Shown here piece after piece: positions 57,952-64,000 of a stretch of 64,000 bases of DNA (its first letter is position 1; each line of letters begins with the position of its first letter). The stretch comes from Bacteroidales bacterium (GTDB taxonomy: Bacteria; Bacteroidota; Bacteroidia; Bacteroidales; P3), in NCBI GenBank assembly GCA_017647785.1, contig JAGCJW010000006.1, positions 62,001-126,000 on the forward strand, written 5' to 3'. The position numbers and the translations under genes were made by a program. Below the pieces are notes generated by a model that saw nothing but the letters and a program-made list of their open reading frames with translations, was not told the DNA's origin and did no database searches.

Positions 57952-60900
57952 ATGGCAAAAGAAAAGAAATTTTTGACTTGCGATGGTAATCAGGCTTGTG
58001 CTCACGTTGCATATATGTTCAGCGAAGTAGCAGCAATTTACCCTATTACACCATCATCACCAATGGCAGAATATGTTGATGAATGGTCAGCAAATGGTCG
58101 CAAAAACATTTTTGGAGAAACAGTAAAATTAGTTGAAATGCAATCAGAAGCAGGAGCTGCTGGTGCATTACACGGTTCTTTACAAGCAGGTGCTTTATCT
58201 ACAACATTCACTGCATCACAAGGATTGTTGTTGATGATACCTAATATGTATAAAATAGCGGGAGAATTACTTCCTGGCGTATTACACGTAACAGCAAGAA
58301 CAATTGCTGCTCACGCTCTTTCAATTTTCGGAGATCACTCTGACGTTTACGCTTGCCGTCAAACAGGTTTTGCAATGCTTTCTTCTGCTTCTGTACAAGA
58401 AGCTATGGATTTAGCAGGAGTTGCTCACCTTTCAGCAATCAAAGGAAGAGTTCCATTTATGCACTATTTTGATGGATTCCGTACATCTCACGAAATTCAA
58501 AAAATAGAAGCCTTAGAAACAGAAGATATGGCTGCTTTGGTTGATCAAGAAGCATTGAGAAATTACAGAGAAAATGCCTTGAATCCAGAACACCCTGTTA
58601 CAAGAGGTACAGCTCAAAACCCAGACGTATTCTTCCAAGCAAGAGAAGCATGTAATCCATACTATGAAGCATTACCTGAAATAGTAGCAGATTATATGGA
58701 AAAAATCTCTAAATTAACAGGAAGAGATTACAAACCATTCAACTACTATGGACCAGCAGATGCTGAAAACGTAATAGTAGCAATGGGTAGCGTTTCAGAT
58801 ACAATAAAAGAAGTTATAGATTACCTTGCTAAGAAAGGTGAAAAATTAGGATTGGTAACAGTACACTTATATCGTCCATTCTCTAAAAAATACTTCTTTG
58901 AAGCATTACCAAAAACTGCAAAAAGAATTTGTGTGTTAGATCGTACAAAAGAAGCAGGTGCTAACGGAGATCCATTATACTTAGACGTTGTTGAAGCATT
59001 TGCATCTTGCTCTTGCACAGAAAAACCAATGGTTATTGGAGGTAGATATGGATTGTCTTCAAAAGATACAACACCAGCACAAATCCTTTCAGTAGTAGAA
59101 AACCTTAAATCAGCTAACCCAATGAACCAATTCACAGTTGGTATAGTTGATGACGTTACAAATCGTTCTTTACCAATGTTACCAGAAGTTTCAATGGCAA
59201 CAGAAGGAACATTTGAAGCTAAATTCTACGGATTAGGAGCAGATGGTACAGTAGGAGCAAACAAAAACTCTATCAAAATCATCGGAGACAACACAAACAA
59301 ATATTGTCAAGCATATTTCTCATACGATAGTAAGAAATCAGGAGGATTTACTTGCTCTCACCTTCGTTTCGGAGACAATGTAATTCGTTCACCTTACTTA
59401 GTAACAACACCAGACTTTGTTGCTTGCCACGTGTTCAACTACATGAATATGTATGAAGTATTAAAAGGAATCAAACCAAACGGAACATTCTTATTAAACT
59501 CAATGTTCTCAGCAGAAGAAACTGTTGAAAGATTAAGCAGCAAGGTTAAAAAAGAATTAGCAGAAAAGAATATCAACTTCTACATAATCAACGCAACAAA
59601 GATTGCAGAAGAAATAGGATTAGGAAACAGAACTAACACAATTCTTCAATCAGCATTCTTCAAGATTGCAGAAGTAATACCTTACGAAGTTGCAGTTACT
59701 GCAATGAAGAAAGCAATCGACAAATCATACGGCAAGAAAGGTGAAAACATCGTTAAGATGAACTACGCTGCTGTTGATAAAGGAGGAGAAGTTATAAAGA
59801 TAGAAGTTAAGAAAGAATGGGCTGATGCTTGCACATGCGGTTGCAACTGTGGAGAAGCAGCAGACAGACCAGAATTCATAAAGAACGTAGTAGATGTAAT
59901 CAACGCACAAGAAGGAGACACATTACCTGTAAGTACATTTGTGGGAAGAGAAAACGGAACATTCCCATGTGGTACATCACAATACGAAAAGAGAGGAATC
60001 GCAGCACACGTTCCAGCATGGAATCCAGAAAACTGTATCCAATGTAACAAGTGTTCATTAGTATGTCCTCACGCAGCAATTCGTCCATTCGTATTCACAG
60101 CAGACGAACTTGCAAAAACAGGAAATCCTGAAACTATAAAAGCAATAGGAAAAGAATTTGAAGGAATGCAATTCCGTATGCAAGTTTCTCCGCTTGACTG
60201 TACAGGTTGTGGAAACTGTGTTGATGTATGTCCAGCTAAGACAAAAGCTCTTACAATGGAACCATTACACACACAAATGGAAGAAGCAAAAACTTGGGAC
60301 GTTGTAAGCAAAAACGTAACATACAAATCTAACCTAGTAGAAGTAGGAAAGAGCATAAAGAATTCTCAATTTGCACAACCATTATTTGAGTTCTCAGGAG
60401 CATGTGCAGGTTGTGGTGAAACTCCTTACATCAAATTGATAACTCAATTGTTCGGAGAAAGAATGATGGTGGCAAACGCAACAGGTTGTTCTTCAATCTA
60501 CGGAGGTTCTTGCCCATCTATGCCTTACACAACTAACGCAGAAGGAAAAGGACCAGCTTGGGCTAACTCATTATTTGAAGATAACGCAGAATTTGGTTTA
60601 GGTATGGCTACTGCAACTCGTAAAATGAGAGACAGAGTAGAAGACCTAATGAGAAAAGGCTTAGCATGCGATTGCTGTACAGCAGACCAAAAAGCATTAT
60701 TCCAACTTTGGATAGACAATAGAGAAAACGCAGAAATCACACAAAAAGTTTACAACTCACTTGTTCCAACATTAGGACAATGCGGTTGCGATATATGCAA
60801 AGACTTAGAAGCAAACAAACAATTCATTGTTAAGAAATCACAATGGATATTTGGTGGCGACGGTTGGGGATATGACATCGGATACGGTGGACTTGACCAC

Positions 60901-61497
60901 GTTATCGCATCAGGCGAAGATGTAAACATCTTAGTAGTAGATACAGAAGTTTACTCTAACACAGGAGGACAAGCATCAAAAGCAACACCTGTAGGAGCTA
61001 TAGCTAAATTTGCAGCATCAGGAAAGAGAATTCGTAAGAAAGACCTTGGTATGATAGCAACAACATACGGATACGTTTATGTTGCACAAGTATCAATCGG
61101 AGCAGACCCTGCACAATACTTAAAAGTATTAAAAGAAGCCGAAGCTTACAATGGACCATCTCTAATCATAGCATACGCACCTTGTATCAACCACGGAATC
61201 AAGATAGGTATGGGAAAAACACAAGAAGAAGGAAAACGCGCAGTTGAATGCGGATACTGGCACTTGTGGAGATACAATCCAGAACTTGCAGCAGAAGGAA
61301 AGAATCCATTTACATTAGATTCAAAAGAACCAGATTGGAGTAAATTCCAAGCATTCATCGATGGTGAAGTACGTTACAACTCATTGAAGAAAGCATTCCC
61401 AGAAGAAGCAGCACAATTATTTGCAGCCTCAGAAGAAAATGCAAAATGGCGTTACGAATCTTACAAGAGAATGGCAACAATGGATTGGAATAAATAA
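57952..61497 (+). CDS. nifJ: Pyruvate:ferredoxin (flavodoxin) oxidoreductase
   Basis: A single-chain 1181-residue PFOR that converts pyruvate and CoA to acetyl-CoA and CO2, reducing ferredoxin. Domain order: alpha-like (YPITPSSPMAEYVDEW, TFTASQGLLLMIPNMYKIAGEL), a middle gamma-like domain (KSGGFTCSHLRFGD), a two-cluster ferredoxin domain (C695-IQC-NKC and C750-TGC-GNC), and a C-terminal TPP domain (GACAGCGETPYIKL, FGGDGWGYDIGYGGLDHV, TEVYSNTGGQASKATP). The length is standard. Codons are noticeably richer in C-ending forms than in many neighbours, in keeping with high expression. It has a consensus promoter and a strong terminator. Confidence 0.97.
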   Translation: MAKEKKFLTCDGNQACAHVAYMFSEVAAIYPITPSSPMAEYVDEWSANGRKNIFGETVKLVEMQSEAGAAGALHGSLQAGALSTTFTASQGLLLMIPNMYKIAGELLPGVLHVTARTIAAHALSIFGDHSDVYACRQTGFAMLSSASVQEAMDLAGVAHLSAIKGRVPFMHYFDGFRTSHEIQKIEALETEDMAALVDQEALRNYRENALNPEHPVTRGTAQNPDVFFQAREACNPYYEALPEIVADYMEKISKLTGRDYKPFNYYGPADAENVIVAMGSVSDTIKEVIDYLAKKGEKLGLVTVHLYRPFSKKYFFEALPKTAKRICVLDRTKEAGANGDPLYLDVVEAFASCSCTEKPMVIGGRYGLSSKDTTPAQILSVVENLKSANPMNQFTVGIVDDVTNRSLPMLPEVSMATEGTFEAKFYGLGADGTVGANKNSIKIIGDNTNKYCQAYFSYDSKKSGGFTCSHLRFGDNVIRSPYLVTTPDFVACHVFNYMNMYEVLKGIKPNGTFLLNSMFSAEETVERLSSKVKKELAEKNINFYIINATKIAEEIGLGNRTNTILQSAFFKIAEVIPYEVAVTAMKKAIDKSYGKKGENIVKMNYAAVDKGGEVIKIEVKKEWADACTCGCNCGEAADRPEFIKNVVDVINAQEGDTLPVSTFVGRENGTFPCGTSQYEKRGIAAHVPAWNPENCIQCNKCSLVCPHAAIRPFVFTADELAKTGNPETIKAIGKEFEGMQFRMQVSPLDCTGCGNCVDVCPAKTKALTMEPLHTQMEEAKTWDVVSKNVTYKSNLVEVGKSIKNSQFAQPLFEFSGACAGCGETPYIKLITQLFGERMMVANATGCSSIYGGSCPSMPYTTNAEGKGPAWANSLFEDNAEFGLGMATATRKMRDRVEDLMRKGLACDCCTADQKALFQLWIDNRENAEITQKVYNSLVPTLGQCGCDICKDLEANKQFIVKKSQWIFGGDGWGYDIGYGGLDHVIASGEDVNILVVDTEVYSNTGGQASKATPVGAIAKFAASGKRIRKKDLGMIATTYGYVYVAQVSIGADPAQYLKVLKEAEAYNGPSLIIAYAPCINHGIKIGMGKTQEEGKRAVECGYWHLWRYNPELAAEGKNPFTLDSKEPDWSKFQAFIDGEVRYNSLKKAFPEEAAQLFAASEENAKWRYESYKRMATMDWNK

Positions 61498-61560
61498 TCC
61501 AATTAAAGATTCATAAAAAACAAAAGGGAAATCCTCAAAGGATTTCCCTTTTCTTATTTC
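61486..61560. repeat. Direct repeat copy 1 (end of nifJ plus its terminator)
   Basis: These 75 bases match 62562-62636 at roughly 85-90 % by eye, including the shared start TGGAATAAATAATCCAA and the terminator hairpin. The repeat begins inside the last codons of nifJ. Confidence 0.75.
61522..61552 (+). terminator. Rho-independent terminator of nifJ
   Basis: Stem AAAAGGGAAATCC (61522-61534) with GGATTTCCCTTTT (61540-61552) and loop TCAAA, followed by a T-rich tail. Confidence 0.87.
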
Positions 61561-61584
61561 TTTTTATTAAAAAAAAGAGTTTTT

Positions 61585-61614
61585 TTTGGGGGGGGTAAAA
61601 AATACTTATCTTTG
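61585..61614 (+). promoter_or_regulatory. Candidate phase-variable promoter with a G8 tract in its spacer
   Basis: A T8 run (61580-61587) joins a G8 run (61588-61595), forming TTTG at 61585-61588. The -7 element TATCTTTG lies at 61607-61614, so the spacer is 18 bp and most of the G-run lies in it. The perfect promoters of this window have 19 bp. Slippage of one G would restore that distance. Confidence 0.6.
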
Positions 61615-61639: not shown

Positions 61640-62569
61640 ATGAAAAAAACACTTGTTTTGATTGTAATGCAATTTGCATTGATAATCTCAGTTTCTTTGA
61701 AAGCACAAACACAATCTTACGAATATGTCCCTATTGTTAAAGAAGGTTTACAAATATGGACAATAGATAGAGAGTATGGTCAGTATAATGAGCAGTATAG
61801 TTATGAAAGATTAGCTTTAACAGAGCAAGATACAATCATAGATGGCAAGTCGTATAAGAAACTTTACTCTTTTACAGAGCGAGAGTTTAATATAGAAACA
61901 GCAACCTTTGTTTGTGGGATAAGAGAAAATGAAAACAAACAAGTTTTTGTAGCATCATATCATAATCAACAGGAGTTTTTACTATATGATTTTTCTTTAA
62001 CAGAAGGAGATTCTATACTTGCAGAAAGTAATGGTGAATATGATCTCTATTTTAATGTAACAGATGTTGATACTATTGATTACAATGGAGTGGAGAGAAG
62101 AAAAATCACTTTGCAATTTTACAATTACGCTTGGGTTACTTGGATTGAGGGGATTGGAAACATAGAAGGATTGTTAATGGATTGGAGAAGTTACACTATG
62201 GCAATGGATCCTATGCCTAATGTACGTTTACGTTGTTATGAACACAACGAAGAATGTTTGTATTCCGACTTTTCTTTTAATGAATCTATATATGATTGCT
62301 ATACACCTTTATACACAGGACTTGAAAACAATGAATTTGAAAGAGAAGTTTCTATTTACCCCAACCCAGCCAAAGATTATTTCTTCATAAATTCATCTGC
62401 CCCTATCAAACAATTGATTATTTGTAATCTTTTAGGACAAAAACTAAAAGAATACAACACCTCAGAAATAACATCTTCAATAGATATTATAGGATTGAAT
62501 AAAGGAGTGTATGTTGTAAAGATTTATACAGATAAAGCAGTGTTTTCTCAAAAGATTATAGTGGAATAA
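61640..62569 (+). CDS. Secreted protein with T9SS type A sorting domain
   Basis: A 309-residue protein with a signal peptide (TLVLIVMQFALIISVSLKAQ). The middle region is beta-rich and unnamed, with YKKLYSFTEREF, QFYNYAWVTWIEGIGNIEGLL ('WIEGIG' is a recurrent phrase in Bacteroidales T9SS cargo) and several cysteines. The last 75 residues are a T9SS type A domain (VSIYPNPAKDYFFINS, LIICNLLGQKLKEYN, IGLNKGVYVVKIYTDKAVFSQKIIVE). It is expected on the cell surface or released; its activity is unknown. The gene is single, with its own unusual promoter and terminator, and lies between two copies of a 75-base repeat. Confidence 0.85.
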   Translation: MKKTLVLIVMQFALIISVSLKAQTQSYEYVPIVKEGLQIWTIDREYGQYNEQYSYERLALTEQDTIIDGKSYKKLYSFTEREFNIETATFVCGIRENENKQVFVASYHNQQEFLLYDFSLTEGDSILAESNGEYDLYFNVTDVDTIDYNGVERRKITLQFYNYAWVTWIEGIGNIEGLLMDWRSYTMAMDPMPNVRLRCYEHNEECLYSDFSFNESIYDCYTPLYTGLENNEFEREVSIYPNPAKDYFFINSSAPIKQLIICNLLGQKLKEYNTSEITSSIDIIGLNKGVYVVKIYTDKAVFSQKIIVE

Positions 62570-62636
62570 ATAATCCAACCAAAGAATCATAAAAACAAAT
62601 AGGGAAATCCTCAAAGGGTTTCCCTATTTTTATTTC
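62562..62636. repeat. Direct repeat copy 2 (end of the T9SS gene plus its terminator)
   Basis: Second copy of the repeat at 61486-61560. It begins inside the last codons of the T9SS gene, but in a different reading frame from that in nifJ, so the similarity is at DNA level and not due to related proteins. Confidence 0.75.
62597..62629 (+). terminator. Rho-independent terminator of the T9SS cargo gene
   Basis: AAATAGGGAAATCC (62597-62610) pairs with GGGTTTCCCTATTT (62616-62629), with one T-G wobble and loop TCAAA. It is a near copy of the nifJ terminator. Confidence 0.85.
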
Positions 62637-62709
62637 CACAAAACTTCTTCTCTGATTTCATCAAACTTTATTTCGTAGCTGTAAGTTCTAAAAGTTTTGA
62701 AATAAAGTC
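62630..62709 (-). pseudogene. Frameshifted C-terminal remnant related to the gene at the right edge
   Basis: Read on the minus strand, the end translates as SYEIKFDEIREEVLWK-stop, nearly identical to the last residues of the gene cut by the right edge (GYEIKFDEIREEILWK-stop). The first 45 bases of the two copies (62630-62674 and 63920-63964) differ at only two sites. Upstream, the alignment continues (DFISKLL versus EFITRLF) but needs a one-base shift, so the frame is broken. No start codon or body of the gene is present. It appears to be the decayed 3' end of a paralogue. Confidence 0.65.
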
Positions 62710-62752
62710 TTCGCATTCTCAAAATAGTCGGCTATTATACTTACTTAATCAT

Positions 62753-63832
62753 TTACTTTGAATAAACATGATAGAAAGTTTCCACATGTTTAAGAAAATC
62801 TTGGAATTTTTGTTTGTATATTCCGGAGTTTGCCCATTGAGAATACACTGCAACTTCTGTTCCGTTATTTAAGATAATAGAATCTTTTGTAAAAAAGCGA
62901 CCTTCATCTTTTCTTTCTTTTACAAAGTCTATAGGGCGTATAATTCCACATTTGCGATTAATACTTAAATAAGAGGGAAATCGTTCTTCTAATTCTTCCA
63001 AAGTTATATTTGGATGCTCTGATATATATTGTTTAACTACAGCTAAAACAAATGGTCCAACTCCATAATAGTTAATTCCATCTAATGAAAAAACCTCTTT
63101 TGCATATTCTTTATTAGTGGTTTCAATTTCCGGCTTCTTTATTTTTTGCTCAGTGCGATATGATTGTTTTCTTTCTATTTTAATTGTTAGTTTTTCTAAC
63201 TCGCATTCTAAAGCTTTTTCTTCAAATCCTTCTTTGAGGAACTTTTCTTTAATTAAGGTAACGATGTTTTTGTTAGCATCGCTACTAAAAAAGAATTCAT
63301 TAAAACGCTCTTGTAAATTATTGCGAGCTATAATTTGATTATAGTATTCTTTGCAGGAGTCTTCTAAGGAAGTTATATCAAATTTTTCGTATGAAAGCAT
63401 TTCACAAAATATACTTCCATTAACATCGCCTTCACGAAATTCTACCTTGAAAACACAGATAGGATTATCTAAATCATTAGGAGTGTCATAGTATAATTGG
63501 ATATTTTCGCCTATGTATAAACCAATATTTAATTTTAATTGACGCATATAAGACATCAATTGAGATTCTTGTTTAATATTACAAGTATTGTTTGGGCGTT
63601 TAATTTCAATAGGTAAAACTGGAATGCCATTTTTATAAAGTACAATATCAGGTCTTATGGAATTGTTATTTCCGATTGGGATTGTTACTTGGGATTGCAT
63701 GGTTTTATTAGAACTTCTCCAACCTAAAAATTTTAAACAATTTTCAATCTCTTGTTGATATTTAGTTTCTGTTGAATTACATTTTATATATGGTTGTAGT
63801 GTTGTAACTATTTCAATCCAATTTTCATTCAT
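62753..63832 (-). CDS. Protein with type I restriction HsdR-like N-terminal nuclease domain
   Basis: A 359-residue cytoplasmic protein. The N-terminal part (about 15-140) resembles the HsdR N-terminal nuclease domain: YQQEIENCLKFLGW, then RPDIVLYKNGIPVLPIEIKRPNN, which holds the D...E-x-K part of the PD-(D/E)XK motif, and QLMSYMRQLKLNIGLYIGENIQLYY. The centre (about 190-235) is charged and helical. The C-terminal part (about 245-359, SLDGINYYGVGPFVLAVVKQYI ... GTEVAVYSQWANSGIYKQKF) is a separate domain I cannot name; it may bind DNA. There is no helicase motor. It may act as a stand-alone defence nuclease, but this is inference. Confidence 0.75.
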   Translation of the reverse strand: MNENWIEIVTTLQPYIKCNSTETKYQQEIENCLKFLGWRSSNKTMQSQVTIPIGNNNSIRPDIVLYKNGIPVLPIEIKRPNNTCNIKQESQLMSYMRQLKLNIGLYIGENIQLYYDTPNDLDNPICVFKVEFREGDVNGSIFCEMLSYEKFDITSLEDSCKEYYNQIIARNNLQERFNEFFFSSDANKNIVTLIKEKFLKEGFEEKALECELEKLTIKIERKQSYRTEQKIKKPEIETTNKEYAKEVFSLDGINYYGVGPFVLAVVKQYISEHPNITLEELEERFPSYLSINRKCGIIRPIDFVKERKDEGRFFTKDSIILNNGTEVAVYSQWANSGIYKQKFQDFLKHVETFYHVYSK

Positions 63833-63919: not shown

Positions 63920-64000
63920 TTATTTCCACAAAATCTCTTCTCTGATTTCATCAAACTTTATTTCATAGCCGAAAGAATTGAAAAGCCTTGTGATAAACTC
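63920..64000 (-). CDS. C-terminal end of an unidentified gene (runs off the right edge)
   Basis: The last 26 codons of a minus-strand gene are visible, ending in the residues GYEIKFDEIREEILWK before a TAA at 63920-63922. That this is coding is supported by its nearly identical counterpart at 62630-62674, where the two base differences fall as E-E-V versus E-E-I, a conservative pattern. The family cannot be told from this short piece. It lies upstream of the HsdR_N-like gene in the same direction, with 87 bases between. Confidence 0.6.
   Translation of the reverse strand, partial: EFITRLFNSFGYEIKFDEIREEILWK

Follow-up and report, generated by a model that had tools for sequence, protein, structure and literature searches.

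In Neisseria meningitidis porA, as reportedly described by van der Ende in 1995 (a reference listed in PMC5084427), a poly-G tract lies between the -35 and -10 elements and its length sets the spacing of these elements. Spacing tracts also occur upstream of core promoters, as with the TAAA repeats of Neisseria nadA and the poly-C tract of Bordetella fim. In Bacteroides, invertible promoters provide stochastic transcription of surface genes by site-specific DNA inversion (reviewed in PMC11868660), and surface variation in Bacteroidales has so far been described mainly via this route. Homopolymer phase variation in Bacteroidales was not found in the literature searched, a weak negative because the search covered open-licence papers only. 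In Campylobacter, poly-G of at least 7 is the cut-off for phase-variable tracts, and switching has been shown at 8 or more (PMC6321876).

The window analyzed here is a stretch of 64,000 nucleotides from a Bacteroidales genome (G000; 1.94 Mb in 42 contigs). It contains a G8 homopolymer inside the predicted promoter of a gene for a type IX secretion system (T9SS) cargo protein. The features of this region are as follows:

57952–61497, + strand: nifJ, pyruvate:ferredoxin oxidoreductase, the upstream gene (TIGR02176, 1924 bits)
61522–61552, + strand: terminator-like hairpin in the interval between nifJ and the T9SS gene
61580–61587, + strand: T8 tract immediately preceding the G tract, read from the sequence
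61585–61588, + strand: predicted -33 element TTTG at the T/G junction, from the pattern scan and spacing statistics
61588–61595, + strand: G8 homopolymer, supplying the final base of TTTG and 7 of the 18 spacer positions, read from the sequence
61589–61606, + strand: promoter spacer GGGGGGGTAAAAAATACT, 18 bp, with 7 G after TTTG
61607–61614, + strand: predicted -7 element TATCTTTG (TAnnTTTG, Bacteroidetes primary sigma factor)
61640–62569, + strand: predicted promoter target, a 309-aa exported protein with a T9SS type A C-terminal sorting domain

The initial annotation had described a T8 run followed by G8, with TTTG at their junction and an 18-bp spacer. On re-reading, each of these elements was recovered as described, with 7 further G past the TTTG. 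The perfect TTTG-19-TAnnTTTG promoters listed for the window are likewise present (+9302, +15780, +25451, +53002, +57872 and -57636). A pattern scan of the whole window returned G8 as the sole G/C run longer than 6, the remaining G runs being at most 5 long. The claim that G8 is the only such run thus stands within the window but not genome-wide, where further G/C runs of at least 7 exist. The -33 TTTG and -7 TAnnTTTG elements match the consensus of the Bacteroides primary sigma factor (PMC7366714), and 25 bases separate TATCTTTG from the ATG at 61640. A homopolymer of at least 7 G/C therefore occupies a core promoter as in the porA type, with G8 between TTTG and TATCTTTG. Because the terminator-like hairpin follows nifJ, a promoter of its own is expected for the T9SS gene.

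The spacing of these elements was assessed in 464 kb of the window's own genome, which served as the background sample for spacing and run statistics. In this sample, 97 TAnnTTTG boxes were found 20–120 bases ahead of predicted starts. The TTTG-to-TAnnTTTG spacer could be read in 16 cases and was 19 bp in 11 of them, with single cases at 17, 18 and 21 bp and two at 20 bp. The window promoter is the sole case with a spacer of 18. The proposal that its spacer is off-optimum against a sharp preference for 19 bp is thus upheld. Given this preference, 8 G leave the window promoter one base short, and 9 G would restore a spacer of 19. In statistical terms, tract length here sets a spacing with a defined optimum, as in the porA type, the optimum of 19 being drawn from frequencies. 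From the same frequencies, we infer that a 9-G promoter would be stronger than an 8-G one.

The assignment of the downstream gene as T9SS cargo was confirmed. The ORF at 61640 matched TIGR04183 (E = 2.2e-14; 53.2 bits against a curated cut-off of 23) and PF18962 (E = 4e-13), and its N-terminus resembles a signal peptide. The genome also encodes the T9SS translocon, with SprA_N (E = 6e-165) detected within a 2396-aa frame. No close relatives of the window protein were found in the genome-contig search. A G tract was absent upstream of homologous genes in G024, G008, G009, G020 and others, including homologues from another genus, so the tract is not characteristic of this family of genes.

The T9SS gene and its promoter sit between two direct repeats:

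61486–61560, + strand: left copy of a 75-bp direct repeat, comprising the nifJ 3' end and terminator, 88% identical to 62562–62636
62562–62636, + strand: right copy of the 75-bp direct repeat, overlapping the T9SS gene's stop codon

The right copy is nearer to the nifJ 3' flank of the sister species, and other genes follow nifJ in G004 and G003. Given this arrangement, the window T9SS gene resembles an insertion specific to the species, placed at a variable site. A second direct-repeat pair (83% identity; 62630–62711 and 63920–64000, running on to 64002 in contig C42) encloses the next gene, an HsdR_N-type ORF on the minus strand (62753–63832). Two neighboring genes are thus each enclosed by direct repeats.

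Genome-wide, 13 distinct G/C runs of at least 7 were counted. Six intergenic runs of at least 8 were present in the genome against about 0.025 expected, the expectation coming from a first-order model fitted to intergenic sequence (0.006 such runs per 464 kb). The gene caller was a simple one and probably counts too little DNA as intergenic, by a factor too small to matter for this enrichment. In the 464-kb sample, intergenic run lengths were bimodal, with 27 runs of length 4, two of length 5 and none of length 6, followed by runs of 7, 8 and 9. The window G8 tract is therefore beyond chance occurrence. Seven of the 13 runs are intergenic tracts in promoter regions, comprising the window tract and the following six:

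C5: G7, ahead of a T9SS cargo gene
C19: C9 on the gene strand, ahead of a T9SS cargo gene
C23:22135: G8, ahead of a T9SS cargo gene
C23:50205: C9
C38:63464: G8, ahead of a small lipoprotein gene
C42:142770: C9

An eighth intergenic tract (G7, in C40) is left unassigned. The other five runs overlap ORFs; four are in frame, and the fifth, in an acyltransferase gene, is at a frame break. A dispersed AT-rich intergenic repeat around TTCTTTGTTTT occurs in dozens of copies in G000, G003, G004 and G005, for example upstream of C23:50205.

A signal peptide or lipobox was predicted for the gene after every promoter-type tract (7/7), and likewise after one G6 tract. The export predictor is crude, labelling 34% of all genes as exported; at that rate, seven out of seven would arise with a probability of 5e-4. 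T9SS cargo genes lie behind four of the seven tracts (window, C5, C19 and C23:22135), compared with about 2.6% of all genes by a crude count. Long tracts are thus both over-represented and tied to surface genes.

The layout of the window promoter recurs at two other sites. At C38:63464, the promoter reads T8 G8 TAAAAAA GTTG TATATTTG with a spacer of 18, its T8G8TAAAAAA being identical to that of the window. At C25:27145, it reads TTTG6 TAAAAAAAAGTG TATCTTTG with a spacer of 17. The genes at these two sites encode paralogous small lipoproteins. The pattern TTTG6-N6-18-TAnnTTTG gave three matches in the window genome and none with the reversed-pattern control, and 24 matches across 246 other genomes of the order. 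A scan of 84,980 species for the exact layout returned 48 scattered matches with no clear taxonomic focus. Elsewhere, tracts are placed at -33, or C-oriented 44–50 nt before the -7 element, or just past -7. The simple spacer model fits directly only the window site and its two relatives, most other promoter tracts lying at or upstream of -33.

This variety of placement bears on the main rival to slippage, in which poly-G and the following TAAA stretch form a fixed cis-regulatory element of conserved length, for instance a regulator site for exported-protein genes. TA follows seven of the eight long intergenic tracts in the window genome and all five clear cases in the related genome G002, and is rarer after short runs (15/121 after G3, 5/27 after G4). 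The tract-then-TA signature appears in either orientation to the gene, including the C-oriented tracts 44–50 nt upstream of -7. Across the genus, TA(A/T) almost always stands 3' of long G tracts in both orientations. A tract of C9 in the promoter of an outer-membrane-protein gene is also conserved across species, being present in both G000 and G004 with flanks 86% identical. Nevertheless, the tracts vary in length (6 to 13) and in position, some lying upstream of -33 and others as far along as just past -7, and GGGGGTAAA occurred nine times against six for the reversed control, the excess consisting of the long tracts themselves. With GGGGGTAAA barely above its control, there is no population of short-core sites. 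We regard a fixed element as unlikely. A fixed short binding motif, GGGGGTAAA, had been considered as the main idea and was dropped for want of clear enrichment over the reversed control.

Tracts of this type also occur in sister species. In G002, promoters of secreted-protein genes carry G10–G13 tracts. Two paralogous G002 promoters, whose 5' flanks can be aligned through the tract, have G12 and G13, and their downstream spacer differs too. In G003, a G9 tract precedes TAACTTTG by ten bases and lies ahead of the gene for a short exported protein judged similar by eye, and G005 has a C8 tract ahead of another exported protein. Long G tracts in the promoters of exported-protein genes thus form a genome-wide and genus-wide set. 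The short exported proteins L094 and L096 (G002) and L067 (G003) are 73–83 aa long with a C-terminal hydrophobic segment and a basic tail; each has a G9–G13 promoter tract and is followed by the gene of a large secreted protein.

Comparison between species also bears on another reading, in which the homopolymer of this AT-rich promoter is neutral or drifts slowly, with fixed and somewhat weak transcription from the 18-bp spacer and incidental length variants. Tract lengths are equal in both orthologous pairs that can be compared across species, C9/C9 at the outer-membrane-protein promoter and C7/C7 in the acyltransferase gene. MutS is encoded in the genome, a point that also speaks against slippage, and species differ through the gain and loss of tracts; at the C5 and C19 loci, the orthologous sister-species promoter has no tract. 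The abundance of long intergenic G tracts, far above the composition model, and their concentration upstream of exported-protein genes argue the other way. We likewise regard neutral drift as unlikely.

That the tract length is an artefact of assembly or sequencing appears very improbable. Some sequencers have trouble with poly-G, and tracts of this kind are break points in the assemblies of relatives. In G001, which is close to G002 and comprises 250 contigs, four contig ends lie 6–35 nt from three orthologous tracts. It is unlikely that these ends fall there by chance; they may reflect length heterogeneity or poly-G sequencing dropout. Nevertheless, T8G8TAAAAAA was assembled a second time in the window genome, at C38:63464, and at orthologous sites independent assemblies give matching tracts.

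Several tracts of the genus lie within genes. The acyltransferase-3 gene (C38:5750 in G000, L011 at about 1501; L287 in G004) is split into two frames at C7, and its second part is still conserved. It was tried as a contingency gene in the OFF state and set aside on finding C7 and the same frame break in the sister species, so it is no proof of slippage. The break in both species could mean that both genes are off, or it could represent programmed slippage. A glycosyltransferase family 4 gene in G002 (C15:42610, L098 at about 2011) has its frame broken at a G11 tract, and an M42 peptidase gene of the genus has a frame break at a G8 tract. In G001, the HsdS type I restriction specificity gene (C28:5331, L064 at about 1501) carries an in-frame G9 between its two target recognition domains. 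Glycosyltransferases and HsdS are gene classes known for simple-sequence phase variation.

Poly-G as a trait of the whole family was also considered. G9 runs are present in 93 of 101 genomes of the family. At 20 tract loci (43–59% GC) in three genomes of the large genus g3, no promoter or exported-gene pattern was found, and the family-wide idea was rejected on this lack of a tie to promoters or exported genes. Some g3 tracts lie at contig ends. The promoter-tract pattern is a property of the AT-rich genus from which the window comes.

Taken together, the most likely reading of G8, with a probability somewhat above even, is that slippage varies the promoter as in meningococcal porA. Under this reading, replication slippage would alter the number of G in the tract and with it the distance between TTTG at -33 and TATCTTTG at -7, the elements predicted to be read by the Bacteroidetes primary sigma factor. 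The altered spacing would raise or lower transcription of the T9SS cargo gene at 61640. The sequenced cell, with 8 G and a spacer of 18, would represent the weak state and a 9-G variant the stronger one. Slippage at the window tract, its effect on expression, its reversibility and its selective advantage are all presumed here. G8 is near the lower length limit for high-rate slippage; it reaches the Campylobacter threshold. Slippage-changed spacing is the simplest account of both the anatomy and the association with exported proteins. The phase-variable promoter put forward by the initial annotation is thus plausible and partly supported, being favored by the placement of the tract, the spacing, the cargo gene, the wider tract set, the two promoters of like layout, the G12/G13 pair and the coding tracts at frame breaks or in HsdS. 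The equal lengths of orthologous tracts, the presence of MutS and the tract-free promoters of orthologues and homologues count against it, and the change in length is itself a prediction.

A broader proposal is held more tentatively, at a little under an even chance. Dispersed poly-G tracts that have the GnTA(A/T) signature in common may serve the genus as contingency loci in the promoters of genes for T9SS cargo and further exported proteins, slippage tuning the -33/-7 spacing, beside coding tracts in glycosyltransferase and HsdS genes. If correct, promoter homopolymers at T9SS cargo genes would add a second, slippage-based route to surface variation in Bacteroidales. The idea is directly testable on existing metagenome reads, and the tract could be used to quantify how tightly the Bacteroidetes primary sigma factor depends on a 19-bp spacer.

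As in porA, the poly-G tract of the window lies within the spacer of a promoter that serves a surface-protein gene. Unlike porA, the promoter is of the -33 TTTG/-7 TAnnTTTG type with a preferred spacing of 19, the product is T9SS cargo, and length variation is predicted. The C-oriented tracts 44–50 nt upstream of -7 resemble the nadA and fim arrangement, whereas the window tract sits within the core spacer. Similar to the phasomes of Campylobacter and Neisseria, G/C tracts of at least 7 are tied to surface, glycosyltransferase and restriction genes, with a threshold of 7–8 G (PMC6321876). The genome has 13 tracts, compared with 5–81 phase-variable genes per Campylobacter genome, and about half of its tracts are of the promoter type, whereas 77% lie within ORFs in Campylobacter (PMC6321876). 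The Bacteroides invertible promoters belong to the same order and likewise vary surface genes, whereas the model proposed here is based on homopolymer length and invokes no inversion. If true, these would be porA-type promoter tracts, an already known kind, in an order noted chiefly for promoter inversion.
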